Positions 35,925-54,681 of a DNA stretch of 64,000 nucleotides are shown piece after piece; positions within the stretch are counted from its first letter, which is position 1, and each line of letters opens with the position of its first letter. The stretch lies in assembly GCF_007830055.1 (NCBI RefSeq), contig NZ_VLLE01000005.1, positions 186,001-250,000 of the forward strand, written 5' to 3'. The notes under the pieces are model-generated. The model was given only the letters and a program-made list of their open reading frames with translations. It did no database searches and was not told where the DNA came from. The stretch comes from Lacibacter cauensis (GTDB lineage: Bacteria; Bacteroidota; Bacteroidia; Chitinophagales; Chitinophagaceae). The translations under genes were made by a program, and so were the position numbers.

Positions 35925-38900
35925 ATGTTTTTATTACGCAACGTCCGTTTCGTAGCATTACTCGTTGTTTGCGGTATCTTTTTTTCCTGCAAGGAAAACA
36001 AAACGCTTTTTACACAGGTAGATGCTGCAGCTTCAGGCATCAGCTTTCAAAACAAGCTCGAGGATAAACCGCACCACAATATTCTTTATTATCTCTATTT
36101 CTATAATGGCGGTGGTGTTGCAGCAGGCGATATCAATAATGACGGATTGGTTGATCTGTATTTTACAGCAAATACCAAAGGCAACAACAAATTGTATTTA
36201 AACAAAGGCAATTTTCAGTTTGAAGATATTACAACCAAAGCAGGCGTTGCAGGCAACAGTGATTGGTGCAGCGGCGTAACCATGGCCGATGTAAACGGCG
36301 ATGGATTCCTGGATATTTATGTATCGGCAGTTGCAAAGTTTAACGATCTGAAAGGCCACAATGAATTATTCATTAACAAAGGCAATGGAACATTTACGGA
36401 GCAATCGAATCTTTATGGTCTCGATTTTTCCGGCTTATCAACACAGGCTGCTTTTTTCGATTACGATAAGGATGGAGATCTGGATTGTTTTTTAGTGAAT
36501 CATTCCAAGCAGCCACATGCAAACATTGTTGATACGGTTAACCGTAATAAAAAAGATTCCATCAGCGGCAGCCGTTTATTCCGCAACGAATTAAATAAAG
36601 GCGAACAGAAATTTACGGATGTTACAGCAGAAGCAGGCATTTATCAATCCAACCTTTCTTACGGACTAGGATTAGCTGTAGCCGACATGAACAACGATGG
36701 TTGGGATGATGTGTATGTTGGCAACGATTTTCACGAAAACGATTATTACTACATCAACAATAAAAACGGTACGTTCAGCGAAAGTGGTGCAAAACATTTT
36801 GGGCATTACAGCCGCTTTAGTATGGGTAACGATGTGGCCGATTATAACAACGATGGACAGCCCGATATTATTACGGTTGACATGTTACCTCCTGATGAAA
36901 AAACATTAAAAACGTATGGCAGCGATGAGAACCCCGACATCTACAAAGTAAAGCTGCAGATGAACGGTTATCAGCATCAGTATTCACGCAACTGTTTGCA
37001 AAAAAATAATGGCAGCGCTGTTAACTTCAGCGAAGTTGGTTTAATGGCAGGCGTATCTGCAACCGACTGGAGCTGGAGTCCGTTGTTTGCCGACTTTGAT
37101 AATGACGGAAAAAAAGATCTGTTTATCAGCAGCGGTATTGTAAAGCGACCGGTTGATCTTGATTATATCCGTTTTGTTTCCTCGATGCAGATGAACAAGG
37201 GATTGGATGCAACCGATCAGTACGATGCAGAAACCATCAGTAAAATGCCCGATGGCAGCAGTCATCCATTCTTCTTTAAAAACAACAATGGCCATTCGTT
37301 TAGTGATGTAAGTGTTGCATGGGGTACTGCAAACATGAAAGGTTATTTCAATGGTGCTGCTTATGCTGATCTGGATAACGATGGTGATCTGGATGTTGTA
37401 ACCAACAACATCAATGCGCCTGCAACAGTTTTAAAAAACGAAACGACTGGCAAAAATTATCTCAGCATACAATTCAAAGGAGACAGTTTAAACAGGTTTG
37501 CTGTTGGAGTAAAAGCTTACCTGTTTACAAAAACGGGTATGCAATATCAACAGCTGATGTTAACAAGAGGATTTCAGTCGGCAGTAGAACCACGTTTGCA
37601 TTTTGGATTGGATAGTGTGGTAACAGTTGATTCGCTTGTAATTGTTTGGCCCAATCAACAAAGCCAAACCATTAAAAATCCGGCGATAAATAAACAGCTT
37701 GTTGTTACACAAAAAGATGCAACCGGCATGTTTCAATACGATTTATTCTTTGGTACGCCTGCGCCGTATTTTAAAGATGTAACCAATGAAATTGCATGTA
37801 ATTGGAAGCATACTGAAAATGATTTCGAAGATTTTAATGTGCAATATCTTATTCCGCATGCGCAAAGTACCAGAGGTCCCAAACTGGCTGTAGCAGATGT
37901 AAACGGTGATGGGTTGGATGATTTTTATGCATGCGGTGCAAAAGGCCAACCGGGTGCATTAATGTTGCAACAGCCGAATGGAATATTTCAATCAACGAAT
38001 ACTGCATTGTTGGCAAAAGATGCTGGTTGTGAAGATGTAGATGCTGTATTTTTTGATGCTGATGGAAATAAAACAATCGATCTGCTGGTCATCAGCGGAG
38101 GTAACCAGTTGCCGCAACATGCAGGCGATCTTGCCGATCGCTTGTACCTTAATGATGGCAAAGGAAATTTTACACGAAAGAACGATGCCTTTACCATTCA
38201 ATACGAAAATAAATCCTGTGTGGCTGTTGCCGATGTAGATCATGATGGTGATATGGATTTCTTTGTAGGCAATCTTGCAAGCCCTACGGGTTATGGTTTG
38301 CTTAAACCTTCTTACCTGTATCTCAACGATGGAAAAGCGAAGTTTACCAATGCATCCATGCAGAAAATTGATTTGACTGCGTTGGGTATTGTAACCGATG
38401 CAGCGTTTGCAGATGTAAATAAAGATGGTTGGGACGATTTGCTGGTAACAGGGGAGTGGATGCCGTTGAAAGTGTTCATCAACAACAAAGGAACCTTTAC
38501 GGCAACCGATGTGCCTGCCTCTACAGGTATGTGGCAGCATATAACAGTTACAGATGTAAACAATGATGGTTATGCAGATGTTTTGGCCGGCAACTGGGGG
38601 CATAACTCCAAGCTGTGGGAACGTAAAGATGGTCCGCTGAAACTGTATGTGAAAGATTTTGATAACAATGGTAAAACCGAACAGATACTGGCATACAACA
38701 TTAAAGGCGAAGAGTATCCTTTTTTAGCGAAAGATGAGCTGGAACGTCCGTTGCCTTTGTTGAAAAAAGCATACCTCACTTACGGCGAAGTTGCAGGTAA
38801 AACCGTGCAGTATATTTTTTACGATTTGTTTAAAGATTACAAAGAACTGAAAGCAGAAGTGCTGGGCAACTCGGTATTCATCAACGATGGTAAAGGAGGA

Positions 38901-39227
38901 TTTAAGCGCTACGATCTTGGTAACGAATTGCAGCTTTCGCCCATTATGAGTTTTGCAACCGTTAGTGCAGGCGGGAGTTATATAGCCGGGGGGAATTTTT
39001 ACGGAGTAATTCCTTACGAAGGAAGATACGATGCATTATACCCATCGCTGTTTTCATTCAATGGCGAACAGTCTGCTGTATACGCATCGTTACAGCATAT
39101 AACAGGCGAAGTGAGAGATATGCAATGGTTGCGTACTGCAGGGGGGAATAAGGTATTGGCAATTGCAAGAAATAACTCACCCTTACTTTTTATGAAAAGT
39201 ATAGGTGAGTTGCAAACAATGAAATAA
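35925..39227 (+). CDS. VCBS/FG-GAP-repeat lipoprotein with UnbV (ASPIC) domain
   Basis: A 1100-residue lipoprotein (lipobox FFSC, Cys22 from the ATG at 35925; a GTG nine bases upstream is the other option). It consists of two beta-propeller regions built from calcium-binding DxNxDGxxD-type loops; I count at least twelve (for example DINNDGLVD, DVNGDGFLD, DLDNDGDLD, DVNNDGYAD). Between them, near residues 505-605, is an ASPIC/UnbV segment (LRFAVG-like start, RGFQSAVEPRLHFGLD, VIVWPNQQSQTI). The family is common near SusC/SusD genes in Bacteroidota, and its role is unproven; glycan or cell-surface binding is most likely. A near-consensus -7 box at about 35908 suggests its own promoter. Confidence 0.88.
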   Translation: MFLLRNVRFVALLVVCGIFFSCKENKTLFTQVDAAASGISFQNKLEDKPHHNILYYLYFYNGGGVAAGDINNDGLVDLYFTANTKGNNKLYLNKGNFQFEDITTKAGVAGNSDWCSGVTMADVNGDGFLDIYVSAVAKFNDLKGHNELFINKGNGTFTEQSNLYGLDFSGLSTQAAFFDYDKDGDLDCFLVNHSKQPHANIVDTVNRNKKDSISGSRLFRNELNKGEQKFTDVTAEAGIYQSNLSYGLGLAVADMNNDGWDDVYVGNDFHENDYYYINNKNGTFSESGAKHFGHYSRFSMGNDVADYNNDGQPDIITVDMLPPDEKTLKTYGSDENPDIYKVKLQMNGYQHQYSRNCLQKNNGSAVNFSEVGLMAGVSATDWSWSPLFADFDNDGKKDLFISSGIVKRPVDLDYIRFVSSMQMNKGLDATDQYDAETISKMPDGSSHPFFFKNNNGHSFSDVSVAWGTANMKGYFNGAAYADLDNDGDLDVVTNNINAPATVLKNETTGKNYLSIQFKGDSLNRFAVGVKAYLFTKTGMQYQQLMLTRGFQSAVEPRLHFGLDSVVTVDSLVIVWPNQQSQTIKNPAINKQLVVTQKDATGMFQYDLFFGTPAPYFKDVTNEIACNWKHTENDFEDFNVQYLIPHAQSTRGPKLAVADVNGDGLDDFYACGAKGQPGALMLQQPNGIFQSTNTALLAKDAGCEDVDAVFFDADGNKTIDLLVISGGNQLPQHAGDLADRLYLNDGKGNFTRKNDAFTIQYENKSCVAVADVDHDGDMDFFVGNLASPTGYGLLKPSYLYLNDGKAKFTNASMQKIDLTALGIVTDAAFADVNKDGWDDLLVTGEWMPLKVFINNKGTFTATDVPASTGMWQHITVTDVNNDGYADVLAGNWGHNSKLWERKDGPLKLYVKDFDNNGKTEQILAYNIKGEEYPFLAKDELERPLPLLKKAYLTYGEVAGKTVQYIFYDLFKDYKELKAEVLGNSVFINDGKGGFKRYDLGNELQLSPIMSFATVSAGGSYIAGGNFYGVIPYEGRYDALYPSLFSFNGEQSAVYASLQHITGEVRDMQWLRTAGGNKVLAIARNNSPLLFMKSIGELQTMK

Positions 39228-39248
39228 ACAATAAATCTATTGAGTTAA

Positions 39249-40679
39249 ATGAAACATCTAAATCGAATGAAAAGTATTTTAGTATTAGTGGCGGTAATGT
39301 CGCTGAGTTTTAATTGCGATAAACGCAAAGCAGGAGGAGGTACGCCCAATACTGCCGGTGCAGAAGTAAACTGGTGGCTTACAACAGGTAATCAAACTTC
39401 GTTATTGCAAAAGCAGCCTGTATTTACATTTAATAATGGCGGTACCGCTGTATTAACCATTGATGTAGACAGTACGCAAACCTATCAAACTATTGATGGT
39501 TTTGGTTACACGTTTACCGAAGGCAGTGCTTACCTCATCAATAAATATGGTGCTGCAGCAAAAAATAATTTACTGCAGGAGTTGTTTGGTACAGCAGATA
39601 ATGCAATTGGCGTAAATTATTTACGCATTGGTATGGGCGCAACCGATCTAAGTACAAAAGTGTACAGCTACAACGATTTGCCCAATGGAGAAACCGATAT
39701 TGCACTCAGTAAGTTTTCGCTGGCGCAGGATACCGTGGATGTGATTCCGTTGCTGCAACAGGTGCTTGCCATTAATCCGAATATAAAAATTATGGCTACG
39801 CCCTGGAGTGCACCAACATGGATGAAGGATAACAACAATACTGTTGGCGGAAGATTGAAGACGCAGTATTACAGTGTATATGCACAATACTTTGTAAAGT
39901 ATATCCAGGCAATGAAAGCAAAGGGTATTACCATTGATGCCGTTACTATTCAAAACGAACCATTGCACGGCGGCAACAATCCCAGTATGTTGATGAATGC
40001 TGCAGAACAAGCTGATTTTATCAAGAATCATTTAGGTCCCGCTTTCAGAGAATCGAACATCACAACAAAGATTGTGTTGTACGATCATAATTGCGATCGT
40101 CCGGATTATCCGATTGCAGTATTGAATGATGCAGCTGCAAAACCATTTGTTGATGGCTCTGCATTTCATTTGTATGCAGGTGATGTGGCAGCAATGTCTA
40201 CCGTACACGATGCACACCCCGACAAGAATTTATATTTCACCGAACAATGGACAGGTGCAAGCGGCAGTTTTGATGGTGATTTGAAATGGCATGTCCGTAA
40301 TGTCATCATTGGTACTATGCGCAACTGGAGTAAAGTGGCGCTCAACTGGAATCTGGCGAATGATGGTAGTTATAATCCGCATACGCCTGGTGGTTGCGAT
40401 CAATGTAAAGGAGCGTTGACATTGGATGGCGGTGTTATCCGTAACGTATCTTATTATATCATCGGTCATGCTTCTAAGTTTGTGCCTGCTGGTTCAAAGC
40501 GTATTGCCAGTACACAAACTGGTAATCTTTATACCGTAGCTTTTTTACGTCCTGACGGAAAGAAAGTATTGATTGCACTCAACGACGGAACAACGACTCT
40601 ACGCTTTAATATTAAATACAAAGGAAGTAACGCAAATACAAGTTTGCCTGCAGGAGCAGTGGCAACTTATGTTTGGTAA
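39249..40679 (+). CDS. GH30 lipoprotein, GH30_3-like (endo-beta-1,6-glucanase-like)
   Basis: A 476-residue glycoside hydrolase of family 30, clan GH-A. The acid/base is Glu237 in TIQNEP and the nucleophile Glu332 in YFTEQWTG; the substrate-contact ATPWSAPTWMKDN is intact. Segments such as KIVLYDHNCDRPDYPI and SFDGDLKWHVRN recall subfamily 3, whose known members are beta-1,6-glucanases. The (beta/alpha)8 barrel is followed by the usual side beta-domain. The N-terminal signal ends in SFNC, an atypical lipobox, so surface lipidation is probable but less certain. It is 21 bp after the VCBS gene, in a run of enzyme genes. Confidence 0.87.
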   Translation: MKHLNRMKSILVLVAVMSLSFNCDKRKAGGGTPNTAGAEVNWWLTTGNQTSLLQKQPVFTFNNGGTAVLTIDVDSTQTYQTIDGFGYTFTEGSAYLINKYGAAAKNNLLQELFGTADNAIGVNYLRIGMGATDLSTKVYSYNDLPNGETDIALSKFSLAQDTVDVIPLLQQVLAINPNIKIMATPWSAPTWMKDNNNTVGGRLKTQYYSVYAQYFVKYIQAMKAKGITIDAVTIQNEPLHGGNNPSMLMNAAEQADFIKNHLGPAFRESNITTKIVLYDHNCDRPDYPIAVLNDAAAKPFVDGSAFHLYAGDVAAMSTVHDAHPDKNLYFTEQWTGASGSFDGDLKWHVRNVIIGTMRNWSKVALNWNLANDGSYNPHTPGGCDQCKGALTLDGGVIRNVSYYIIGHASKFVPAGSKRIASTQTGNLYTVAFLRPDGKKVLIALNDGTTTLRFNIKYKGSNANTSLPAGAVATYVW

Positions 40680-40695
40680 TAATAAAACAACGATT

Positions 40696-42165
40696 ATGAA
40701 CAGATTATTCTTTGTTGCAGCAACCTGTTTGTTTGCAGCATGTACTACAACAGAAAAGGACAAATCTTCAACTGCAGCAACAGCTGCGTTTTCAACGGAC
40801 GGTAAGAAGGTGTTGGTGTATTCTACGGCCGACAGTACCGATCTGCGTTTGTCGCTCAACGATACATTAACGTTTGCCGACAAAGGGCAGCCTTTCGAAA
40901 ACGAGATCATGGTTTTTGTTGATCCCGGTAAAACCTTTCAGTCGTACATGGGTGTTGGCGCTGCTTTAACCGATGCATCAGCCGAAGTGTTTGCAAAGCT
41001 TTCGAAAGAAAAGCAGCAGGAATTTTTAACGGCTCATTTCGATAAAGAAAAAGGAATCGGTTATACAATAGTACGTACCAATATTAACAGCTGCGATTTC
41101 AGCAGCGATATGTACACCTATGTGCAGGATGGCGATAAAGAACTAAAATCGTTCAACATTGAACATGATCAGAAATTTAAAATTCCGTTGATTAAAGCCG
41201 CTATGCAGGCAGCAGGCGGAAGTTTGAATTTATTTGCAAGCCCGTGGAGTCCGCCAGCCTGGATGAAAGACAATAACGATATGCTGCACGGTGGTAAACT
41301 GAAAGAAGAGTTTGCAGGCAGCTGGGCCTTGTACTATACAAAATTCATCAAGGCATATGAAGCTGCCGGTATTCCGGTGTGGGGCATCAGCATCCAGAAC
41401 GAACCAATGGCCAAACAGATTTGGGAGAGTTGTATTTACACAGCGGAAGAAGAAAAGAATTTCCTGGTGAAACATCTTGGCCCTACAATGGAGAAAGAAG
41501 GATTGAATGATAAGAAGATCATCATGTGGGATCATAACAGGGATTTGATTTATCAACGTGCAACTACTTATTTCAACGATCCGGAAGTAAAGAAATATGC
41601 ATGGGGTATTGGCTTGCATTGGTACGAAGACTGGAGCGGTGGTGATCAGATGTTTGATAATGTACGTCGTGTACACGAATCATTTCCTGATATGCCGATC
41701 CTGTTTACTGAAGGTTGTAATGGTCCCTTCAAAATGGAAAACGTTTACCAATGGAAATTGGGCGAGCGTTATGGCCGCAGCATGATCAACGATTTTAATA
41801 ATGGAATGACGGGCTTCACCGACTGGAATATTCTGCTCGATGAAACAGGTGGTCCCAATCATGTAAAGAATTTCTGTTTTGCACCCGTACATGCCGATAC
41901 ACGTACCGGCGAACTGATTTATACCAATGCGTATTACTATATCGGACATTTTTCAAAATTCATACAGCCAGGTGCCAAACGCATCAGTGCAGCGCCGAGC
42001 AGAAGTCAGCTTTTGTCAACTGCGTTTCAAAATCCCGATGGAAGTATTGCAGTCGTCGTAATGAATCAAAGTGATAAACCAACTGATTTTATGTTGTGGA
42101 TTAATGGTAAAGCTGCTACAACAAAAGCGCTGGCACATTCCATCAACACCTATCTCATTCAATAA
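40696..42165 (+). CDS. GH30 lipoprotein, GH30_1-like
   Basis: A second GH30 enzyme, 489 residues, lipobox FAAC (Cys16). Acid/base Glu236 in SIQNEP and nucleophile Glu339 in LFTEGC; ASPWSPPAWMKDN is intact. It differs clearly from its upstream neighbour (no DHNCDRPDY; it has WDHNRDLIYQRA and TDWNILLDETGGPNH) and looks like subfamily 1, which holds glucosylceramidases, beta-glucosidases and beta-xylosidases. The frame is open further upstream inside the previous gene, but the ATG at 40696 gives a lipoprotein signal. It is 16 bp after the first GH30. Substrate: a beta-glucoside, inferred from context. Confidence 0.87.
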   Translation: MNRLFFVAATCLFAACTTTEKDKSSTAATAAFSTDGKKVLVYSTADSTDLRLSLNDTLTFADKGQPFENEIMVFVDPGKTFQSYMGVGAALTDASAEVFAKLSKEKQQEFLTAHFDKEKGIGYTIVRTNINSCDFSSDMYTYVQDGDKELKSFNIEHDQKFKIPLIKAAMQAAGGSLNLFASPWSPPAWMKDNNDMLHGGKLKEEFAGSWALYYTKFIKAYEAAGIPVWGISIQNEPMAKQIWESCIYTAEEEKNFLVKHLGPTMEKEGLNDKKIIMWDHNRDLIYQRATTYFNDPEVKKYAWGIGLHWYEDWSGGDQMFDNVRRVHESFPDMPILFTEGCNGPFKMENVYQWKLGERYGRSMINDFNNGMTGFTDWNILLDETGGPNHVKNFCFAPVHADTRTGELIYTNAYYYIGHFSKFIQPGAKRISAAPSRSQLLSTAFQNPDGSIAVVVMNQSDKPTDFMLWINGKAATTKALAHSINTYLIQ

Positions 42166-42191
42166 AGAACGGTTTTTGCTGTAAAAACAAT

Positions 42192-43862
42192 ATGAAGATC
42201 CTCGTACGATATTGCTTGTGTTTTTTACTGTTGACGATTGCATCCTGTAAAAAGAAAGCAGCACCGCCTGTTCCGGAGCCACCGAAGCAGGTGACGTTAA
42301 AATCCATTCAGTTAAACGGTGTTGATTTCAGCAGCCTGCGGTATGGCGTTAATCTGCAGCCGACCATTCGGTTACAGTTTACGCAACCGTTAAAGCCTTC
42401 CACTATTGCAACTGCAATTAAGTTGTACAATGCATCGGGTACTGAAACCGGTATTACAACCAGTTTGCAAAACAACGATTCGGTTTTACTTGTACAACCA
42501 TCTGCAGCGCTTGCAAGTGTAGCCCGTTACCAGTTTAAAATTGAAAACGGCTTGCAATCGGCAAGTGGTGGTCTCTTCATTGGTACGGTAGATAATACCT
42601 TTATTACACAAATCGATTCTTCAAGAAAGTTCCCTGCTATCAGCGATGATGAGTTATTGACCAAAGTACAGCAGCAAACCTTTAAGTACTTTTGGGATTT
42701 TGCACACCCAACAAGTGGTCTTGCAAGAGAACGTAATACAAGCGGCGATCTCGTTACATCCGGAGGCTCAGGATTCGGCGTGATGGCAATTGTAACGGGG
42801 ATCAACCGTAATTTCATTACAAGAGCACAAGGCTTGCAACGTATGCAAACCATTGTTGATTTTCTGAAAACAAAAGCGCAAAAATTTCATGGTGCATTTT
42901 CGCATTGGTTAAATGGTAATACCGGAAACGTGATTGCGTTTAGTGCAAAAGATGATGGGGCTGATTTAGTGGAAACATCGTTGCTGATGATGGGTCTGTT
43001 AACTGCACGGCAATACTTTAATGGCGGTGATGTTGCAGAAACAAATCTTCGCAACGACATTACGGCTTTGTACAATGCGGTAGAGTGGAGTTGGTTCAGG
43101 AAGAGTAATGAACAACAGTTGTATTGGCACTGGAGTCCGAATTATGCATGGGATATGAACTTGCCCATCCGTGGCTGGAACGAATGTTTAATTACATATG
43201 TGCTTGCTGCTTCTTCTGCAACTTATGGTATTCCAAAAACAGTATATGATAATGGCTGGGCCAGAAACGGTGCTGCAGGTTTTGTAAATGGTGCGCAATA
43301 CTTCAATATTACATTGCCGTTGGGCAGCGCTTATGGCGGACCGTTATTTCTTTCGCATTATTCATTCATGGGTATCAACCCGAATGGCTTAAGTGATGCG
43401 TATGCCAACTACGAAACGCAAACAAGAAATCATTCACGCATCAATTACCAGTTTTGTGTAACAAATCCCAACGGTAATTATGGTTACAGCGATTCCATCT
43501 GGGGATTAACGGCCAGCGATATTCCCAACGGTTATACAGCCAGTTCTCCTTCGAACGATGTGAGCGTAATTGCCCCAACAGCAGCTATTTCATCGTTACC
43601 CTACACGCCAACAGAAAGTATGAAGGCGCTGAAGTTTTTTTACTATGTGTTGGGCGATAAATTATTTAAAGAGTATGGATTTATTGATGCGTTCTCGTTG
43701 AAACAAACCTGGTTTGCATCTTCTTTTCTGGCCATTGACCAGGGACCTATTATTGTCATGATCGAAAACCACCGCAGCGGTTTGTTGTGGAATTTATTCA
43801 CCAGCTGTCCCGAAGTAAAAAGCGGTATGCGCTTACTTGGCTTCAGCGCACCTTACCTGTAG
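42192..43862 (+). CDS. GH144-like (glucoamylase-domain) lipoprotein with Ig-like module
   Basis: A 556-residue lipoprotein (lipobox IASC, Cys19). Residues about 30-145 are an Ig-like module of the Big_5 kind (IRLQFTQPLKPSTIATAIKLYN). Residues about 155-556 are an (alpha/alpha)6 toroid with TFKYFWDFAHPTSGLARER, GFGVMAIVTGINR, DDGADLVETSLLMMGLL, YWHWSPNYAWDMNLPI and APTAAISSLPYTP. This is the domain named 'glucoamylase' in Pfam, which in family GH144 is an endo-beta-1,2-glucanase fold (the founder, as I recall, is from Chitinophaga pinensis). The adjacent gene is a paralogue without the Ig module. I expect cell-surface attack on beta-1,2-glucan. Confidence 0.82.
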   Translation: MKILVRYCLCFLLLTIASCKKKAAPPVPEPPKQVTLKSIQLNGVDFSSLRYGVNLQPTIRLQFTQPLKPSTIATAIKLYNASGTETGITTSLQNNDSVLLVQPSAALASVARYQFKIENGLQSASGGLFIGTVDNTFITQIDSSRKFPAISDDELLTKVQQQTFKYFWDFAHPTSGLARERNTSGDLVTSGGSGFGVMAIVTGINRNFITRAQGLQRMQTIVDFLKTKAQKFHGAFSHWLNGNTGNVIAFSAKDDGADLVETSLLMMGLLTARQYFNGGDVAETNLRNDITALYNAVEWSWFRKSNEQQLYWHWSPNYAWDMNLPIRGWNECLITYVLAASSATYGIPKTVYDNGWARNGAAGFVNGAQYFNITLPLGSAYGGPLFLSHYSFMGINPNGLSDAYANYETQTRNHSRINYQFCVTNPNGNYGYSDSIWGLTASDIPNGYTASSPSNDVSVIAPTAAISSLPYTPTESMKALKFFYYVLGDKLFKEYGFIDAFSLKQTWFASSFLAIDQGPIIVMIENHRSGLLWNLFTSCPEVKSGMRLLGFSAPYL

Positions 43863-43865
43863 TGT

Positions 43866-45314: not shown

Positions 45315-45345
45315 AAACGATGCCGGTGAGCCACCCTTGAAGAAA

Positions 45346-45358
45346 GCGAGTGACTCGC
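45346..45358. repeat. GCGAGTGACTCGC palindrome
   Basis: A 13-nt perfect palindrome around a central G, with a smaller GGTG/CACC hairpin just before (45325-45335). Together they fill the 71-bp gap before the Gfo/Idh gene. The core GAGTGACTC also occurs in the queA leader (10671-10679), so it may be a dispersed element. Confidence 0.4.
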
Positions 45359-45385
45359 CGCAGCATATTTATTAAAGTGTTTGCC

Positions 45386-46558: not shown

Positions 46559-46563
46559 ATGCC

Positions 46564-46986
46564 ATGAAGAAATTCTTTTCAGCAGAACCCTTTGCACCAA
46601 ACGTTGGTTTAACGTTGGTACGCATGATTGTTGGCTTGTTTCTCATCTATCACGGTTGGGAAGTATTTGATGCAGCGAAGATGAATGAATATCTTACCTG
46701 GGATAGTTTTAAACAAGCTGCTAATGGAAAGATGTTGGTGTATGCAGGTAAGTCTGCCGAGTTAATAGCCGGTGTATTGTTTGTGTTGGGTTTGTTTACA
46801 CGTGTTGCTGCAGTACTTACAATCGGCACTCTTGGTTACATTGCATTCGGATTAGGCAACGGTGTTGTTTGGTATAACGATCAGCATCCGTTTATGTTTG
46901 TACTCATTGCATTCCTGTTTTTGTTTACTGGACCGGGAACATTCAGTCTAGATGCAAAATTGTTTAAAGAAAAACGAAGATATTAA
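46564..46986 (+). CDS. DoxX-family membrane protein
   Basis: A 140-residue four-helix inner-membrane protein with the DoxX signature: LTLVRMIVGLFLIYHGWEVF at the start, YAGKSAELIAGVLFVLGLFTRVAAVLTIGT in the middle, and PFMFVLIAFLFLFTGPGTFSLDA at the end. Its position between two sugar oxidoreductase genes, 5 bp after the first, suggests an electron-transfer or membrane-anchoring part for one of them, by analogy with DoxD/DoxA in quinone reduction; this is inference. Confidence 0.87.
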   Translation: MKKFFSAEPFAPNVGLTLVRMIVGLFLIYHGWEVFDAAKMNEYLTWDSFKQAANGKMLVYAGKSAELIAGVLFVLGLFTRVAAVLTIGTLGYIAFGLGNGVVWYNDQHPFMFVLIAFLFLFTGPGTFSLDAKLFKEKRRY

Positions 46987-46996
46987 TTCATTCATC

Positions 46997-47014
46997 TCCC
47001 GATAGCTATCGGGA
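46997..47014. repeat. 18-bp perfect palindrome
   Basis: TCCCGATAGCTATCGGGA is a perfect palindrome in the 53-bp gap before the GMC gene. Its half, GCTATCGG, also forms the repeats inside the ABC protein linker (11658-11680). It looks like a dispersed REP-type element of this genome. Confidence 0.55.
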
Positions 47015-47039
47015 CATTACTCATCACTCATCATTCTCA

Positions 47040-48767
47040 ATGCCCGATACTTCGCAATTACATATCAACATAAACGGTAAAGAGGCAAACAGCTATGATG
47101 CTATTGTAATTGGCAGCGGCATCAGTGGCGGCTGGGCAGCAAAAGAGTTGTGCGAAAAAGGATTGAAAACATTGGTGCTCGAAAGAGGAAGAGATGTGCA
47201 GCACATCAAAGATTATCCCACTGCAACGCTTTCACGTTGGGAGTTGCCGCATCGTGGACAAATCACACAACAAACCAAAACAAATAATCCGCTTATTACA
47301 AAAGCAGCCGGCTACGATGAAAGCACGCAACATTTTTTTGTGCAGGATAAAGATCATCCTTACATACAGGAAAAACCATTCGACTGGATCCGTGGTTACC
47401 AGGTTGGTGGTAAATCATTAACATGGGGCAGGGCCTGTGCACGCTGGAGTGAGTATGATTTTACTGCGCCTGAACGCTATGGTTACGGTGAACGTTTCCC
47501 CATCGGTTACAACGACATCAAAGACTGGTACAGCCATGTTGAAAAATTTATGGGTGTATGTGGCAACAGAGACGGAATACCTTCTATGCCCGATGGAGAA
47601 TTTTTAACGGCGTATGAGTTGAATGTGGTAGAGAAGCATTTGCAGAAAGTGATCAAGGAAAAATTCAATCGTCATTATGTGAGCGGACGTTGGGCGCATA
47701 TCAGCGATCCGCAGCCCATTCATCTGCAGCAAGGCCGTGGACAATGCATGAACCGCAATTTGTGTATGCGTGGTTGTCCGTTGGGAGGTTACTTCAGCTC
47801 TAATTCATCTACATTGCCATGGGCAGCAAAGACGGGCAACTTAACCATCCGTCCACATTCAGTTGTGCATTCCATTATTTACGATGAGCAAAAGCAAAAA
47901 GCAATTGGTGTACGTGTAATTGATGCACAAACAAAAGAAGCAAAAGAATATTTTGCCAAGATCATTTTTGTAAATGCCTCTGCACTCAATACCAATCTTA
48001 TTTTATTGAACTCAACATCGCAACGTTTTCCAAATGGTTTAGGAAACGATAGCGGATTGCTGGGTAAATACATTTGCTTCCACAATTACCGTGGAAGTAT
48101 GAATGGTGAGGTGGAGGGATTTGAAGAATATTATTACAAAGTATCGAAGCCGGTGGAATGTATTGTGGCCAACTTTCGGAATGTGGAAAAACAGGAAACA
48201 GACTTTAAAGGCGGGTATGTTATTTACTCCGGTGCGTACAGAGAAAAACTCAATGATGAAAATATAAAACCATTGATCGGTGCTGAATACAAAGAAGCCA
48301 TCAGCGAACCCGGCAAGTGGGGCGTGTACATGTATATGCAGGGCGAAACGATTGCAAAAGAAAGGAATCATGTGCGTTTGAGTAACGAGGAAAAAGATCA
48401 GTGGGGAATACCTTTGCTTATTACATCGGTTGATTATGATGAGAACGATGATAAGATGGTGAATGATTTTTTACAACAGGGCAAAGCAATGCTGGAAGCT
48501 GCCGGTGTAAAAAATATTGAAATGAGAGACAGTATGCAGGCGCCCGGTTTGGATATACATGAAATGGGAGGTGTGCGCATGGGTGCCGATCCGAAAACAT
48601 CGTTGCTGAACGAATGGAATCAACTGCATCATTGTAAAAATGTATTTGTAACCGATGGCGCCTGTATGACGAGTACGGGCAGTCAGAGTCCATCTATTTT
48701 ATACATGGCGTTTACTGCACGTGCAGTCAACCATGCTGTGGAAGAATTAAAAAAAGGAAATCTTTAG
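47040..48767 (+). CDS. GMC-family FAD oxidoreductase (sugar/glucoside dehydrogenase-like)
   Basis: A 575-residue flavoprotein. FAD binds at IVIGSGISGGWAAKELCEKG (residues about 20-39) with LERG following; KSLTWGRACARW matches the GMC central motif; the C-terminal catalytic part has HEMGGVRMGADP and TDGACMTSTGSQSPSILYMAFTARA. A Cys-rich loop (CMNRNLCMRGCPLGG) in the middle is typical of the group related to glucoside 3-dehydrogenase and gluconate dehydrogenase. It has no signal peptide; such catalytic subunits are often exported with a small Tat-bearing partner, which is not present here. It may oxidise the 3-OH of a glucoside. The next gene starts one base after it. Confidence 0.88.
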   Translation: MPDTSQLHININGKEANSYDAIVIGSGISGGWAAKELCEKGLKTLVLERGRDVQHIKDYPTATLSRWELPHRGQITQQTKTNNPLITKAAGYDESTQHFFVQDKDHPYIQEKPFDWIRGYQVGGKSLTWGRACARWSEYDFTAPERYGYGERFPIGYNDIKDWYSHVEKFMGVCGNRDGIPSMPDGEFLTAYELNVVEKHLQKVIKEKFNRHYVSGRWAHISDPQPIHLQQGRGQCMNRNLCMRGCPLGGYFSSNSSTLPWAAKTGNLTIRPHSVVHSIIYDEQKQKAIGVRVIDAQTKEAKEYFAKIIFVNASALNTNLILLNSTSQRFPNGLGNDSGLLGKYICFHNYRGSMNGEVEGFEEYYYKVSKPVECIVANFRNVEKQETDFKGGYVIYSGAYREKLNDENIKPLIGAEYKEAISEPGKWGVYMYMQGETIAKERNHVRLSNEEKDQWGIPLLITSVDYDENDDKMVNDFLQQGKAMLEAAGVKNIEMRDSMQAPGLDIHEMGGVRMGADPKTSLLNEWNQLHHCKNVFVTDGACMTSTGSQSPSILYMAFTARAVNHAVEELKKGNL

Positions 48768-48768
48768 T

Positions 48769-50532
48769 ATGAAGAAACTTGTGATGATAGCTGCAATAAT
48801 AATTTCTGTGTTGCATACACATGCACAACAGAAAACCTATTGCAATCCGATTAATATCGATTATGGTTACACGCCTATTCCCAACTTCAGCGAGTGGGGC
48901 AGGCACCGTGCAACGGCCGATCCGGTGATTGTTACGTACAAGGGCGATTACTATCTCTTTAGTACCAATCAATGGGGCTATTGGTACAGCAGCGATATGT
49001 TGAACTGGAAATTTGTTTCACGGAAATTTTTACGTCCGTGGAATAAAGCATACGATGAATTGTGTGCACCTGCAGTTGGCATCATCGGCGATACCATGAT
49101 TGTCTTCGGTTCAACCTATACCCGCAACTTCAGCATCTGGATGAGTACGAATCCGAAAGAAAATGAATGGAAGCCGTTGGTTGATTCGTTTGATATTGGC
49201 GGATGGGATCCTTCTTTCTTCACCGATGATGAAGGTCGCCTGTACATGTACAACGGCAGCAGTAATAAATTCCCCATGTATGGTATTGAACTCAACAGAA
49301 AAACATTGCAGCCAATTGGTACAAGAAAAGAAATGTATTTGTTGGAGCCCTGGCGTTTTGGCTGGCAGCGTTTTGGAGAACACATGGATAACACGTTTCT
49401 CGATCCGTTTATTGAAGGCAGTCACATGACCAAACACAACGGTAAATATTATTTGCAGTATGGTGCACCGGGCACTGAGTTCAGTGGATATGCGGATGGT
49501 TTGTTAGTAGGGAATGGACCATTGGATTATTTCGAAGCACAAAGTGATCCGTTAAGCATAAAGCTTGGAGGATTTGTACGTGGTGCAGGACATGGCGCAA
49601 CTTTTCAGGATAAGTTTAAGCAGTACTGGCATGTATCAACAACTGTGGTGTCGGTAAAGAATACATTTGAACGGAGGCTCGGTATCTGGCCAACAGGATT
49701 TGATAAAGACGGCAACATGTTTTGCAACACAACCTTCGGCGATTATCCGCATTATATTCCTTCTGATAAAATAGATGGATCGGTTTATGGTAAAGATGGT
49801 AAGTCGCCTTATTTCACCGGCTGGATGTTGTTGAACTATAACAAACCTGTACAGGTTTCATCTACGCTTGGTAATTATGTTGCTAATCATGCTGTCGATG
49901 AATTGATCAAAACATATTGGAGTGCAGCAACAGGCAATAAAGGCGAATGGATACAAACCGATTTGGGAACTGTATCAACTGTTCATGCAGTGCAGATCAA
50001 TTATGCTGACCAGGATGTGGAGCAGAACCGTTTGGGAAAATGGAACGATCAGTATCATCAATACAAAATGTATTACTCGGTTGATGGAAAGAAATGGACT
50101 GTGCTGGTTGATAAGAGTACAAACAAAACAGATATTCCGCACGAATATGTAGAACTGGAAAAGCCGGTGCAGGCACGTTATATAAAAGTGGAGAATATCC
50201 ATATGCCCACCGGTAAATTTGCAGTCAGCGGTTTACGTGTATTTGGTAATGGAAATGGCGCAAAGCCGGAAGCCGTGAAAGGATTTATTGTATTGCGTAC
50301 GGAAAAAGATAAACGTAGTGCGTTCATCAAGTGGAAGCCGGTTGACAATGCTTTTGCCTATAATATTTATTATGGCACCCATCCGGATAAATTGTACACC
50401 AGTATTATGGTGCATGCCAACAATGAATACTGGATGAAGGCAATGGATGCATTAAAGACCTATTATTACAGCATTGAAGCCGTTAATGAAAATGGTGTAA
50501 GCGAACGTTCACCCGTAATGAAAGTAGAATAA
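48769..50532 (+). CDS. GH43-like enzyme with discoidin and fibronectin-type modules
   Basis: A 587-residue exported protein (signal peptide cut near HAQQ). The five-bladed propeller (about 20-340) has the three acidic residues of GH43: Asp51 in ATADP, Asp147 in WDPS and Glu216 in IEGSHM. Next is an F5/8-type (CBM32-like) domain (about 365-500; EWIQTDLGTVSTVHAVQI, ARYIKVENIH), then a fibronectin-III-like module to the end. GH43 enzymes usually cut alpha-L-arabinosides, beta-xylosides or galactosides. None fits a glucan obviously, so this may remove a side sugar or work differently. It is coupled to the next gene by a TAATG overlap. Confidence 0.82.
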   Translation: MKKLVMIAAIIISVLHTHAQQKTYCNPINIDYGYTPIPNFSEWGRHRATADPVIVTYKGDYYLFSTNQWGYWYSSDMLNWKFVSRKFLRPWNKAYDELCAPAVGIIGDTMIVFGSTYTRNFSIWMSTNPKENEWKPLVDSFDIGGWDPSFFTDDEGRLYMYNGSSNKFPMYGIELNRKTLQPIGTRKEMYLLEPWRFGWQRFGEHMDNTFLDPFIEGSHMTKHNGKYYLQYGAPGTEFSGYADGLLVGNGPLDYFEAQSDPLSIKLGGFVRGAGHGATFQDKFKQYWHVSTTVVSVKNTFERRLGIWPTGFDKDGNMFCNTTFGDYPHYIPSDKIDGSVYGKDGKSPYFTGWMLLNYNKPVQVSSTLGNYVANHAVDELIKTYWSAATGNKGEWIQTDLGTVSTVHAVQINYADQDVEQNRLGKWNDQYHQYKMYYSVDGKKWTVLVDKSTNKTDIPHEYVELEKPVQARYIKVENIHMPTGKFAVSGLRVFGNGNGAKPEAVKGFIVLRTEKDKRSAFIKWKPVDNAFAYNIYYGTHPDKLYTSIMVHANNEYWMKAMDALKTYYYSIEAVNENGVSERSPVMKVE

Positions 50533-51200
50533 TGATGAAGAAAGTTTTCGTTAGTATGTTGTTTCTCTTTGTTGTGCTTGTTACCAATGCACAAAGCAAA
50601 GAGCCGTTTCCATTCTGGAACGAAGTGCAAAAGTTTAAAGCAGCTGATAGTGCAGCTTTTCCTGCAGCAAACCAGGTATTATTCATCGGCAGCTCATCGT
50701 TTACGATGTGGAAAGATGTGCAGACTTATTTTCCCAATCGTAAAATACTCAATCGTGCATTTGGAGGAAGTACATTAGCTGATGTGATCCGTTACCGGTA
50801 TGATGTAATCTTTCCTTATCAACCCAAACAGATTGTGATCTATTGCGGCGAAAATGATTTTGCATCGAGCGATACCGTAACAGTTGAGCTGGTGATGCAA
50901 CGTTTTACTACCTTGTTCAATTACATCCGTGCAAAATATAAAAACGTACCTGTTGCTTATGTGTCGATGAAACCAAGCCCGAGTCGTGTTCACTTGCTTG
51001 ATAAGTATAAAGAAGCAAACCAAAAGATTAAATCGTTTCTGGCAACAAAACCCAACACAAATTTTGTTGATGTGTACAGTGCCATGTTGAACGAAAAAGG
51101 CGAACCGATGCCGGATATTTTTTTGAAAGACAATTTGCACATGAATGCAAAAGGGTATGCCATCTGGAAAACAAAACTGGAAAAAGTATTGCTTAAATAA
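50532..51200 (+). CDS. SGNH/GDSL-family hydrolase
   Basis: A 222-residue exported esterase-like protein (signal peptide cut near TNAQS). The SGNH blocks are present: FIGSSSF with the nucleophile Ser in the GDS-type position, a Gly in FGGST, Asn in CGENDF, and the catalytic Asp/His in DNLHMN near the C-terminus. Substrates in this family are acyl esters such as acetyl on sugars. In this cluster it could remove acyl groups (acetyl or succinyl) from the glucan, which is inference. The start codon overlaps the GH43-like stop. Confidence 0.88.
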   Translation: MMKKVFVSMLFLFVVLVTNAQSKEPFPFWNEVQKFKAADSAAFPAANQVLFIGSSSFTMWKDVQTYFPNRKILNRAFGGSTLADVIRYRYDVIFPYQPKQIVIYCGENDFASSDTVTVELVMQRFTTLFNYIRAKYKNVPVAYVSMKPSPSRVHLLDKYKEANQKIKSFLATKPNTNFVDVYSAMLNEKGEPMPDIFLKDNLHMNAKGYAIWKTKLEKVLLK

Positions 51201-51206
51201 CGAAAC

Positions 51207-52244
51207 ATGCGTTTAATCACTTGCATCATCTTAACTGCGTTGGCAATGACAGGTTGTAAAGAACAACCGCAAGTAACAAAAATTGCGTTTGGCTCTTGTG
51301 GTCATCAAGACGATCCGCAGCCGGTGCTTGCTATTGCTGCAGAACAAAAGCCCGACGCTTTTATTTTTCTCGGCGACAATATTTATGGCGATACAGATAA
51401 TATGGATACGCTTCGTGCAAAGTACAATCGGTTAGGTGCAAAGCCGGAGTATCAGCAGCTGGCAGCTGCAACGAATATTTTTGCTACCTGGGACGATCAT
51501 GATTTCGGCAGGAATGATGCAGGCAAACATTATCCATTTAAAAAGGAATCAAAAGAAATCTTTCTTTCCTTCTTCAAAGAACCTGCTGAAAGTGCACGCA
51601 GGAAACACGAAGGAATTTATCATGCCGAATATATTCAGCAAGGCGGTAAAACGGTACAATTGATTTTACTCGATGTGCGTACGTTCCGGAATAATCTCCT
51701 GTTGTACGACAGCAGCGTTCAACTTCCGAGAGAACATTATTTCTACAAACCCGACTATCAGCCACACATCAGCAGAGATAGTGTCTTACTTGGTGAAGAA
51801 CAATGGAAGTGGCTGGAAGCCGAATTGAAAAAACCGGCCGATCTGCGTTTGATCTGCAGCGGTTCACAGTTCAGTATTGAATACAATGGTTATGAAGCAT
51901 GGGTTAATTTTCCGCACGAGCAGCAACGCATGCTCGATCTCATCAAATCAACTAAAGCAAATGCGGTGATGTTCTTAACAGGTGATGTGCATTATGCAGA
52001 AATATCAAAACTGCAAACGCCGGGTTTGTATCCCATCTACGATGTAACATCGAGTGGTATTACCTCTACTTGGGATTTTGCTACACTCAATAAAAACAGG
52101 ATCGAAGGTCCGGTAATGGATAATCACTTCGGGTTGCTTACAATCGAATGGGCGAGTGATCCTGTAATTAAAATGGAAATAATCGATAAACATAAAAATG
52201 GTCGTATTGAGTATACGATCAAACGAAGTGAAATCTGTTTTTAA
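51207..52244 (+). CDS. PhoD-like metallophosphoesterase lipoprotein
   Basis: A 345-residue lipoprotein (lipobox MTGC, Cys17) of the alkaline phosphatase D superfamily. Metal-binding motifs in order: FGSCGHQD, FLGDNIYGD, TWDDHDFGRNDAG and TGDVHYAEI near residue 250-260. PhoD enzymes cleave phosphodiesters and phosphomonoesters, including teichoic-acid-type glycerol phosphate. A PhoD-like enzyme among glucanases suggests removal of phosphoglycerol or similar groups from the substrate glucan. It lies 6 bp after the SGNH gene. Confidence 0.87.
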   Translation: MRLITCIILTALAMTGCKEQPQVTKIAFGSCGHQDDPQPVLAIAAEQKPDAFIFLGDNIYGDTDNMDTLRAKYNRLGAKPEYQQLAAATNIFATWDDHDFGRNDAGKHYPFKKESKEIFLSFFKEPAESARRKHEGIYHAEYIQQGGKTVQLILLDVRTFRNNLLLYDSSVQLPREHYFYKPDYQPHISRDSVLLGEEQWKWLEAELKKPADLRLICSGSQFSIEYNGYEAWVNFPHEQQRMLDLIKSTKANAVMFLTGDVHYAEISKLQTPGLYPIYDVTSSGITSTWDFATLNKNRIEGPVMDNHFGLLTIEWASDPVIKMEIIDKHKNGRIEYTIKRSEICF

Positions 52245-52266
52245 CTGCAATTAAAACGACACGAAC

Positions 52267-54555
52267 ATGAAACAATTATTGACAACGTTTGCTTTGCTGT
52301 TGGTACTATCGCATCAACAGTTGGCAGCGCAGCAGACAAATGAACAAAAGATGAAAGTCTTCATCGATGCATTGATGAAGAAGATGACCTTGGATGAAAA
52401 GATCGGGCAATTGAATTTGCCGGGCTCCGGTGATATTGTTACGGGCCAGGCAAGTAATTCTGATATTGGTAAAAAAATCAAAGAAGGAAAAGTAGGCGGA
52501 TTGTTCAACATCAAATCCGTTGCAAAAATCAAAGCGGTACAAAAAGTAGCAGTGGAAGAGTCACGCTTAAAAATACCGATGCTGTTTGGTATGGATGTAA
52601 TTCATGGTTATCAAACCGTGTTTCCCATTCCGCTTGGTTTAAGTGCCAGCTGGGATATGCAGTTGATTGAACAGAGTGCACGCATTGCTGCAATTGAAGC
52701 GAGTGCCGATGGTATTAACTGGACGTTTTCGCCCATGGTGGATCTTACACGTGATCCACGTTGGGGTCGTGTATCGGAAGGCAATGGAGAAGATCCTTAC
52801 CTCGGCGGACAAATTGCCAAAGCAATGGTGCGTGGTTACCAGGGAAAAGATTTGTCGCTCAATAATACGATCATGAGTTGTGTAAAACACTTTGCATTGT
52901 ACGGTGCTGCAGAAGCCGGTCGTGATTACAATACAACCGATATGAGCCGCTACCGCATGTTCAATGAATACCTGTATCCTTACCAGGCAGCAGTTGATGC
53001 AGGTGTAGGAAGCGTGATGGCTTCTTTTAATGAAATTGATGGTGTGCCTGCAACTGCTAACAGATGGTTACTGGATAATGTATTGCGCAAGCAATGGGGC
53101 TTTAAAGGGTTTTTGGTGACAGACTATACAGGGATCAATGAAATGGTGGATCATGGTATTGGTGATTTGAAAACTGTTTCTGCAAGAGCATTGGGTGCAG
53201 GTATTGATATGGATATGGTGGGCGAAGGGTTTTTAACCACACTCAAACAATCGTTGAAAGAAGGAAAGGTGACCATGCAGATGATTGATGCAGCCTGCAG
53301 AAGAATACTCGAAGCAAAATATAAACTGGGGTTGTTTGAAGATCCTTATCGTTACTGCAACGAAGAGCGTGCAAAAACAGAAATCTTTACTACGGCTCAT
53401 CGCAAGATTGCAAGAGAAACCGCAGCACAAAGTTTTGTGTTGTTAAAAAATCAAAACAACATCTTGCCGTTGAAGAAAAGTGGCACCGTTGCGGTGATTG
53501 GTCCGTTGGCAAATGATAAACGCAATATGCCAGGCACCTGGAGTGTAGCTGCTGAGTTTGATAAAGCAACAGCTGTATTAACCGGTTTAAATGAAGTAGT
53601 GGGTAACAAAGTAAAGTTCCTGTATGCAAAAGGAAGTAATCTCGATTACGATGAAGCATTTGAAGATCGTGCAACGATGTTCGGTAAAGGAATTGGTCGT
53701 GATAAACGTTCGCCTGAAGAAATGATCAACGAAGCCGTTGCCATCGCTAATCAGAGTGATGTAGTGTTGGCAGTGCTCGGCGAAAGTGCAGAGATGAGCG
53801 GCGAATCTTCGAGCAGAAGTAATATTGAAATTCCACAGTCACAAAAAGATTTGTTGAAAGCATTATTAAAAACAGGCAAACCTGTGGTGTTGGTATTGTT
53901 CACCGGTCGTCCGTTGGCATTAACATGGGAGCATCAGAATGTACCAGCTATTTTAAATGTTTGGTTTGGCGGCAGTGAAGCTGGTTATGCTGTAGCTGAT
54001 GTGTTGTTTGGCGATGTAAATCCTTCCGGTAAATTAACCATGACCTTTCCGCAAAACGTGGGTCAGGTGCCTTTGTTCTATAATCACAAGAACACCGGTC
54101 GCCCATTGCCTGATGGACAGTGGTTTCAGAAATTCCGCAGTAACTATTTAGATGTAAGCAATGATCCGTTGTATCCGTTCGGTTATGGATTGAGCTACAC
54201 AACTTTTTCGTACAGCGATGTAAAGATCAGTAATGCCTCACCCAAAGGGAATCAAAACATCACTGCCAGTGTAACGCTTACCAACACCGGTGCAGTTACA
54301 GGAAAGGAAGTGGTGCAATTATACATTCGTGATGTGGTGGGTTCGGTTACACGTCCGGTAAAAGAGTTGAAAGGTTTTCAGAAAGTGGAGTTGAAAGCAG
54401 GTGAAAGCAAAACAGTTACATTCAATATTTCTCCCAACGAGCTTAAGTTTTATAACTACGAGCTGAAGCATGATTGGGAAGCGGGTGAGTTCCAGATTAT
54501 GATTGGCGGTAACTCACGTGATGTGAAAATGGCCAAGGTGAACTGGAGTAAATAA
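52267..54555 (+). CDS. bglX: GH3 beta-glucosidase (BglX-like)
   Basis: A 762-residue exported family-3 glycosidase (signal peptide cut near LAAQQ). The N-terminal barrel (about 30-360) carries the nucleophile Asp286 in VTDYTG and KHFALYGAAEAGRDYN; the alpha/beta sandwich (about 395-600) supplies the acid/base region near LGESAEMSGESSSRS; a fibronectin-like domain ends the protein (about 670-757). The layout equals E. coli periplasmic BglX. It would release glucose from beta-linked oligosaccharides such as sophorose or gentiobiose made by the other enzymes. It is the last gene of the cluster, before a terminator. Confidence 0.94.
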   Translation: MKQLLTTFALLLVLSHQQLAAQQTNEQKMKVFIDALMKKMTLDEKIGQLNLPGSGDIVTGQASNSDIGKKIKEGKVGGLFNIKSVAKIKAVQKVAVEESRLKIPMLFGMDVIHGYQTVFPIPLGLSASWDMQLIEQSARIAAIEASADGINWTFSPMVDLTRDPRWGRVSEGNGEDPYLGGQIAKAMVRGYQGKDLSLNNTIMSCVKHFALYGAAEAGRDYNTTDMSRYRMFNEYLYPYQAAVDAGVGSVMASFNEIDGVPATANRWLLDNVLRKQWGFKGFLVTDYTGINEMVDHGIGDLKTVSARALGAGIDMDMVGEGFLTTLKQSLKEGKVTMQMIDAACRRILEAKYKLGLFEDPYRYCNEERAKTEIFTTAHRKIARETAAQSFVLLKNQNNILPLKKSGTVAVIGPLANDKRNMPGTWSVAAEFDKATAVLTGLNEVVGNKVKFLYAKGSNLDYDEAFEDRATMFGKGIGRDKRSPEEMINEAVAIANQSDVVLAVLGESAEMSGESSSRSNIEIPQSQKDLLKALLKTGKPVVLVLFTGRPLALTWEHQNVPAILNVWFGGSEAGYAVADVLFGDVNPSGKLTMTFPQNVGQVPLFYNHKNTGRPLPDGQWFQKFRSNYLDVSNDPLYPFGYGLSYTTFSYSDVKISNASPKGNQNITASVTLTNTGAVTGKEVVQLYIRDVVGSVTRPVKELKGFQKVELKAGESKTVTFNISPNELKFYNYELKHDWEAGEFQIMIGGNSRDVKMAKVNWSK

Positions 54556-54572
54556 CGAACACCGCTAGAATC

Positions 54573-54604: not shown

Positions 54605-54681
54605 GTTACAGCTTATACAGCTATGAACGTTCGTAAACGGTAAGGTTACTTTATTTACAGCATCATAACTTTACTATTACT

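Follow-up and report, generated by a model that had tools for sequence, protein, structure and literature searches.

A 64,000-nucleotide stretch of the Lacibacter cauensis genome (contig NZ_VLLE01000005.1, positions 186,001 to 250,000 of the forward strand; hereafter the window) holds a polysaccharide utilization locus (PUL), which we analysed for its gene content and likely substrate. Open reading frames scanned against Pfam and NCBIfam form a co-directional run on the plus strand from an extracytoplasmic function (ECF) sigma factor to a hybrid two-component system (HTCS) regulator (28099-58809), in which susC and susD are adjacent and accompanied by degradative enzymes and a regulator (Table 1). 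A sequence-only reading of the window had placed a locus for the degradation of osmoregulated periplasmic glucans (OPGs) at 35925-54555, composed of two GH144-like proteins, a GH30_3-like and a GH30_1-like enzyme, a GH3 enzyme, an SGNH hydrolase and a PhoD-like phosphoesterase. All seven enzymes were confirmed, with genes that run in one direction and follow one another closely, but they are part of the longer PUL, which starts upstream with the sigma factor, FecR, SusC, SusD and LamG genes (28099-35820). Genes within the shorter interval that had been passed over encode FG-GAP/ASPIC, Gfo/Idh/MocA, DoxX and GMC proteins and a GH43 enzyme with an F5/8 domain.

Table 1. Genes of the PUL in the window, with the matches used to assign them
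Feature	Coordinates	Strand	Evidence
ECF sigma factor	28099-28674	+	Pfam Sigma70_r4_2
FecR anti-sigma	28737-29858	+	Pfam FecR, FecR_C
SusC-like TonB-dependent transporter	30038-33352	+	Pfam STN, CarboxypepD_reg, Plug
SusD-like protein	33404-34918	+	Pfam SusD_RagB, SusD-like_3
LamG/ConA-like lipoprotein	34963-35820	+	Pfam Laminin_G_3; lipobox C23
FG-GAP/ASPIC-UnbV lipoprotein, 1103 aa	35916-39227	+	Pfam; lipobox C25
GH30a, GH30_3-like, predicted beta-1,6-glucanase	39249-40679	+	Pfam; closest PDB 5ngk
GH30b, GH30_1-like lipoprotein, predicted beta-glucosidase	40696-42165	+	ATG at 40696; lipobox C16; PDB 2wnw/GBA
GH144a lipoprotein, N-terminal Big_5 domain	42192-43862	+	PF10091 226.7 bits; lipobox C19
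GH144b, without lipobox	43866-45314	+	PF10091 253.2 bits
Gfo/Idh/MocA oxidoreductase	45350-46558	+	Pfam
DoxX-like membrane protein	46564-46986	+	Pfam
GMC-family flavin oxidoreductase	47040-48767	+	Pfam GMC_oxred_N/C
GH43 with F5/8 type C domain	48769-50532	+	Pfam PF04616 75.4 bits, cut-off 32.2
SGNH/GDSL hydrolase, predicted acyl esterase	50532-51200	+	Pfam Lipase_GDSL_2, PF13472
PhoD-like phosphoesterase, lipoprotein	51207-52244	+	PF09423 79.4 bits, cut-off 27; lipobox C17
GH3 beta-glucosidase, BglX type	52267-54555	+	NCBIfam PRK15098
HTCS regulator	54706-58809	+	Pfam Reg_prop, Y_Y_Y, HisKA, HATPase_c, Response_reg, HTH_18

The best solved relative of both GH144 proteins was 4gl3, followed by CpSGL (5gzh/5gzk), the endo-beta-1,2-glucanase of Chitinophaga pinensis. 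Alignment placed D135, D139, E142, E211, F268 and Y330 (CpSGL numbering) in both GH144a and GH144b. Among 175 aligned GH144 sequences D135 is kept in 170 and the other five residues are invariant. Passages of two papers report that D135, D139 and E142 are important in mutants, that E211 is the general acid and E142 a general-base candidate, and that F268 and Y330 are clan residues (PMC12102758, PMC10834661); the SGL-clan groups that proved active in the former were specific to beta-1,2-glucan. CpSGL is of the same family and has all the published catalytic and clan residues in common with the window pair, but the pair lies in other clades of the GH144 tree. The GH144a clade has 60 members (support 0.82) and the GH144b clade 25 (support 1.0), whereas CpSGL, 4qt9, 3eu8 and a third GH144 of the host, encoded on another contig, make up a clade of 37 (support 0.97). 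Tests by clade omit six sequences that fall outside their own labelled clade (two 144a, three 144x and one 144s).

GH30 and GH3 assignments were made by comparison with solved structures and NCBIfam models. GH30a scored 263 bits with 5ngk, which we take to be the beta-1,6-glucanase BT3312, and 169 bits with the next sequence. It is nearer to the BT3312 structure than to other GH30 subfamilies and is therefore GH30_3-like and a predicted beta-1,6-glucanase. The BT3312 system of Bacteroides thetaiotaomicron, which comprises GH30_3 and GH30_1 enzymes and SusC/D, has beta-1,6-glucan alone as its known target. GH30b was closest among PDB sequences to 2wnw (276 bits) and human GBA/glucocerebrosidase (260 bits) and presumably belongs to subfamily GH30_1. 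Xylanases scored below 120 bits with either protein. GH3 exceeded the BglX cut-off (NCBIfam PRK15098, 969.7 against 666 bits) and failed the beta-xylosidase cut-offs; its closest structures were JMB19063 (3u48, 1295 bits) and the periplasmic beta-glucosidase 5xxl (1174 bits), presumably the B. thetaiotaomicron enzyme active on beta-1,2-glucooligosaccharides.

Recurrence of these genes was surveyed in 127 genomes of the host family, 92 of which carry GH144. The survey comprised 97 clusters taken from the GH144 places among the matches listed, each represented by one standard 20-kb segment. Controls were 40 SusD loci without GH144, taken from the highest-scoring SusD matches, five of them shortened by contig ends. 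A further 80 related loci, which are closest matches only, overlap the survey (L016/L165 and L012/L108 hold the same genes) and for this reason were not pooled with it for tests. Fisher tests treat clusters as independent, with the window and genome G083 representing one genus. Counts over longer stretches (101 clusters) include some 40-kb stretches and some fetched because of PhoD, GH43 or GH30_3. In the standard segments we found GH144 of type 144a in 58, 144x in 53, 144s in 36 and 144b in 26. Their partners were GH3 (46), GH43 (38), GH30_3 (26), FG-GAP/ASPIC (25) and GH30_1 (17), and the oxidoreductase-region genes Gfo, DoxX and GMC were present in 19, 13 and 10. Clustering of open reading frames over the longer stretches put GH43 in 44 survey and 46 of the 80 related loci against 0/40 controls, GH30 in 31 and 21 against 0/40, and GH3 in 52 and 42 against 1/40.

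GH30_3 was strongly tied to GH144 of the window type. GH144 of type 144a was present in 25/26 clusters with GH30_3 and in 33/71 without (p=2.5e-6), a close FG-GAP/ASPIC homologue accompanied GH30_3 in 15/26, and 15 of the 17 GH30_1 clusters also held GH30_3. Among 94 GH30_3 matches in the family, those of at least 60% identity to the window protein were near a listed GH144 in 24/43 cases compared to 8/51 below that identity (p=4e-5); counting unlisted GH144 as well raised the former to 27/43. GH30_3 repeatedly neighbours GH144, and does so in a clade-specific manner. GH30_3, GH144 and SGNH occurred together in 17/97 standard segments, and all 23 such clusters of the longer stretches, some of which were fetched for GH43 or GH30_3, also hold GH3 and GH43. 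The full gene set, which the earlier reading had proposed to seek in other Chitinophagaceae, does occur there. GH30_3, GH144, SGNH and a phosphodiesterase were found together in 3/97 standard segments (the window, G083 and G066) and in 6/101 clusters of the longer stretches (also G021, G091 and G034), covering five genera.

Enzymes that could remove decorations were assessed with hidden Markov models (HMMs) seeded from GH144 clusters. The SGNH family so defined was detected in 55/97 GH144 clusters compared to 4/40 controls (p=1.7e-7), in 44/80 related loci and in 63/101 of the longer, mixed stretches; close homologues of the window SGNH accounted for 35 of the 97. The alpha/beta esterase type was not enriched (15/97 GH144 clusters against 4/40 controls). 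SGNH is typical of GH144 clusters, and an acyl esterase is linked to them beyond background. Four phosphodiesterase families were searched, and the 97 standard segments held PhoD in 2, GDPD in 3, endonuclease/exonuclease/phosphatase (EEP, PF03372) in 3 and PF01663 in 4. A phosphodiesterase was present in 6/26 clusters with 144b against 5/71 without (p=0.04), and in 8/26 against 5/75 over the longer, mixed stretches. For 11 of 14 phosphodiesterase genes the distance to a GH144, GH3 or SGNH gene of the same orientation is 0 to about 130 bases; for the window PhoD-like gene, measured from the gene coordinates, it is 6 bases to SGNH. Exceptions were the GDPD of locus L084, which comes after the esterase, and a PF01663 gene 4.3 kb from 144b (L108). 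EEP was found once in a control locus (L206). Of 28 GDPD matches in the family, three were in GH144 loci and for 23 no such neighbourhood was observed, while one lies just beyond a GH30_3/GH43/GH3 locus in G080 and one adjoins GH30_3 in G018. PF01663 matched in 10/247 genomes of the class, and only that of G034, a member of the host family, was near a listed GH144, so the link between PF01663 and GH144 holds within the family only.

The PhoD-like gene lies between SGNH and GH3 in the window, G083, G021 and G091. The FGSC, LGDN, WDDHDFG and GDVHY blocks are identical in all six of its orthologues. Alignment showed a lipobox cysteine in all four copies within a PUL and none in the G049 and G066 copies outside a PUL, and because the cysteine is confined to the PUL copies this suggests that the enzyme may have moved to the membrane upon joining the PUL. 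A single-sequence structure model of the PhoD-like protein had a mean pLDDT of 37 and was not used.

The GH43 gene, one of those that had been passed over, is strongly conserved and closely tied to GH144. Its D51, D147 and E216 are invariant in 21/21 sequences, indicating that the Asp-Asp-Glu triad is kept, the triad being assigned from what we take to be the Asp-Asp-Glu motifs of the family. GH43 with an identity of at least 60% (62-89% when the window protein itself is excluded) was present in 62/127 genomes, and all 62 carry GH144, 59 by the listed places and three by the genome table. In 41 of the 62 at most 40 kb separate the GH43 from a listed GH144, in 18 there is no listed GH144 on the contig, and in three it is farther away. 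Nine of 10 weaker GH43 matches (40-45%) lie away from any listed GH144. A fold search with the predicted GH43 structure (mean pLDDT 67.7) recovered the family but no subfamily: it did not separate xylosidase from arabinanase folds, which were tied at Z 23.8-26.6 and about 20% identity among the best 50 rows.

The 144b clade goes with Gfo genes, holding 13 of the 19 Gfo clusters, and in relatives Gfo lies next to 144b-type GH144. In the window the Gfo/Idh/MocA-DoxX-GMC genes (45350-48767) sit between GH144b and GH43 and suggest that sugar set free by the PUL is in part oxidised. A cassette of Gfo2, SDR, ROK, SIS, MetE-like, NagB/AgaI-like and UlaG-like metallo-hydrolase genes (seen at L089:15073-19845, L090:1-1443, L088, L191, L192 and L169) lies behind 144b-type GH144 in eight clusters, complete or partial; the count in standard segments is six. 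Its NagB/AgaI-like member resembles GlcN6P/GalN6P isomerases, ROK being a kinase and SIS an isomerase. The MetE-like gene was found in 6/26 standard segments with 144b compared to 0/71 without; its orthologue is present in 17/127 genomes and absent from both the host genome and the congener G083. A PhyH-family dioxygenase was seen in a 144b-type cluster (L165:14715-15554), and its sequence cluster has members in four loci of the survey and two of the related set, of which the L165 member was scanned.

Beyond the PUL, a second SusC/SusD pair (59009-63690) directly follows the HTCS gene, and only the TonB barrel of its SusC is recognised by Pfam. Promoter-like sites in 39200-54720 were below those of shuffled sequences and terminator-like sites 1.6 sd above, and neither was used as support.

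The host's third GH144 scored 722 bits with CpSGL, where the two window proteins reached 469 and 465, identifying it as the CpSGL orthologue. It lies on contig C2 in the order SusC, SusD, a weakly LamG-like protein, GH144, alpha/beta esterase and GDPD (at L084:11249-14325). With its esterase and GDPD it may be a second, simpler candidate locus in the same genome for phosphoglycerol-bearing beta-1,2-glucan. GDPD also adjoins CpSGL-type GH144 in G087 and G091. The three PF10091 matches of the genome are in frames of 478, 483 and 583 aa, and weak matches elsewhere are in frames of 2700-2900 aa, which were taken as cyclic beta-1,2-glucan synthases. Because none of its frames reaches that length, the host probably does not itself make cyclic beta-1,2-glucan.

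OPGs are described, in passages of a 2025 review, as having a beta-1,2 backbone with beta-1,6 branches and carrying succinate, phosphoglycerol and phosphoethanolamine; a beta-glucosidase of the B. thetaiotaomicron type active on beta-1,2-glucooligosaccharides is also mentioned there (PMC11842490). In passages of Lapebie 2019 (PMC6499787), GH144 PULs are among the abundant types and GH30_1+GH30_3 PULs among the highly syntenic ones; GH3+GH144 loci are likewise described in passages on Elizabethkingia (PMC6786605) and Maribacter (PMC8072126). As in the window, the GH144+GH3 PULs of these three papers have SusC/D, one or two GH144 and GH3, but GH30_3/GH30_1, GH43, SGNH and a phosphodiesterase are unnamed in the same locus in those passages, and the marine forms have a sulfatase. 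The GH30_1+GH30_3 PULs share both GH30 types and SusC/D with the window, whereas GH144 is unnamed with them in the passages concerned. One paper of the literature searched names both GH144 and phosphodiesterase, and it discusses the latter for loci without carbohydrate-active enzymes. The earlier statement that no described locus has the full combination was therefore too strong for the parts; the complete enzyme set was not found in the literature searched. Neither an OPG-degrading PUL nor a locus consuming decorated cyclic beta-1,2-glucan was described in the open-licence literature searched, which did not cover supplements with PUL compositions.

Together these data lead us to propose, tentatively, a PUL whose substrate is a branched beta-1,2-glucan with ester and phospho decorations, with proteobacterial OPG as the most likely natural example, a reading that seems to us quite possible though short of probable. 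A branched, ester-decorated beta-1,2-glucan as the target is reasonably supported; that unrelated phosphodiesterases recur in these clusters hints at phospho-decoration as well, at a level that is not statistically secure. In the working order that we infer, with substrates, localisations, steps and regulation alike deduced from predicted function, the GH144a lipoprotein would act first, at the cell surface, by cutting the beta-1,2 backbone; the LamG/ConA-like lipoprotein is a probable glycan-binding protein of the surface, its binding role being predicted from its domain. Beta-1,6 branches would be removed by the GH30_3-like and GH30_1-like enzymes and phospho-substituents clipped by the PhoD-like lipoprotein. 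Fragments would then be imported by SusC/D, acyl groups taken off by a periplasmic SGNH, chains shortened by GH144b and glucose released by the BglX-type GH3, with part of the released sugar oxidised by the Gfo/DoxX/GMC proteins.

The OPG reading is partly supported. In its favour are the intact GH144 residues, the pairing of GH30_3 with GH144, the frequency of SGNH, the four phosphodiesterase families and the position of most of their genes beside GH144, GH3 or SGNH, the lipobox of the PUL copies of PhoD, the host's own CpSGL orthologue with esterase and GDPD behind it, and the BglX-type GH3, and a number of observations weigh against it. To our knowledge no sugar in OPG is cut by GH43 enzymes, so the conserved GH43 (38/97 clusters, 62 GH144 genomes) has no known OPG role, and the Gfo/DoxX/GMC genes are likewise not explained by OPG. 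The GH144a and GH144b clades contain no characterised member among the references used, and the CpSGL orthologue of the same genome is in a separate locus. In passages on a B. xylanisolvens GH144 PUL, which like the window PUL has GH144 in a SusC/D locus, the partner GH35 cuts beta-1,2-galactosides and not beta-1,2-glucooligosaccharides (PMC11739564), and GH144 alone therefore does not fix the substrate. GH30a scored 385.3 bits with NCBIfam NF053856 (BT3312), under the equivalog cut-off of 700, and the GH30_3 label accordingly holds as a likeness but not as BT3312 equivalence. Similarly, the PhoD-like protein matches PF09423 but reached only 32.1 bits with AlkPhosPhoDBac, whose equivalog cut-off is 1000, and so is called PhoD-like rather than PhoD. 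Its orthologues (at least 63% identity) are in 6/127 genomes, in the locus in four, with five weaker matches at 33-39%. It was present in only 2/97 standard segments (4 with the longer stretches) and in 0/80 related loci, and the G049 and G066 orthologues are away from any PUL. As a class, phosphodiesterases were not significantly enriched (11/97 against 1/40, p=0.08; 13/101 over the longer, mixed stretches, p=0.05), and enrichment over controls is favoured for both SGNH and phosphodiesterases because the HMM families were chosen from GH144 clusters.

The same genes could instead make up a mosaic PUL with two targets, in which GH144a, GH144b, GH43, SGNH and GH3 act on beta-1,2-glucan and LamG, FG-GAP/ASPIC, GH30_3 and GH30_1 form a separate set for beta-1,6-glucan, fungal or other, with SGNH and PhoD as accessories. 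We consider this rather unlikely. In its favour, GH30_1+GH30_3 PULs count as a separate type in the passages of PMC6499787, 49/94 GH30_3 matches have no listed GH144 on the contig, and GH30 is missing from many loci of the GH144-GH43-GH3 kind. Those GH30_3 proteins that most resemble the window's are, however, preferentially next to GH144, all 23 GH30_3+GH144+SGNH clusters also carry GH3 and GH43 (with the selection noted above), and no family of beta-1,3-glucanases was detected when the window PUL was scanned with Pfam. A xylan or arabinoxylan target, which GH30, GH43 and GH3 as classic xylan families would bring to mind, is highly improbable and is disfavoured by the present data. It has in its favour that, among solved folds, GH43 most resembles xylosidases and arabinanases, and is opposed by the GH30 matches to 5ngk and 2wnw/GBA, far above those to xylanases, by a GH3 that is BglX-like and not beta-xylosidase-like, and by the two GH144. 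The Pfam scan, which covered proteins between 28099 and 63690, found no GH10, GH11, GH16 or lyase domain, in line with the proposed beta-1,2-glucan target, and no GH67 or GH115 domain in the window PUL proteins.

It is also conceivable, though we think it unlikely, that the target is an undescribed beta-1,2-linked heteropolysaccharide other than OPG, from whose GH144a/b-cleaved backbone GH43 removes a pentose or other sugar and whose modified sugar is handled by the oxidoreductases. The recurrence of GH43 in GH144 clusters and related loci (38/97 and 46/80 against 0/40 controls), its invariant catalytic residues, the 144b clusters holding all or part of the Gfo/SDR/ROK/SIS/MetE-like cassette and the beta-1,2-galactosidase of the B. 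xylanisolvens PUL would all fit such a polymer. It sits less well with a BglX-type GH3 near the beta-glucosidase structure 5xxl, with the beta-1,2-glucan specificity of the SGL-clan groups that proved active in PMC12102758, and with the CpSGL-type GH144 that accompanies 144a in 20 of its 60 clusters, chiefly those without 144x. Read directly from the genomes are the gene content, protein families, intact catalytic residues of GH144 and GH43, lipobox cysteines and recurrence of the gene set.

The PUL type is known, its full enzyme combination was not seen in the literature searched, and the GH144-bound GH43 is its most interesting loose end. Many Gram-negative bacteria have OPGs and cyclic beta-1,2-glucans among the polymers of their envelope. 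If the proposed reading is true, the locus would give enzymes that remove phosphoglycerol and acyl groups and that would be useful for mapping the positions of these groups, which, according to passages of the 2025 review, are not identified (PMC11842490). For the family as a whole a broader proposal, which we regard as doubtful, is that GH144 loci may serve to scavenge envelope glucans from other bacteria and, to remove the decorations, may have recruited SGNH and at least four unrelated phosphodiesterase superfamilies (PhoD-like, GDPD, endonuclease/exonuclease/phosphatase and PF01663), with GH43 and the 144b cassette pointing to an undescribed beta-1,2-glucan decoration. The GH43, found only in GH144 genomes, is a concrete and testable clue to a part of beta-1,2-glucan chemistry that is still missing.

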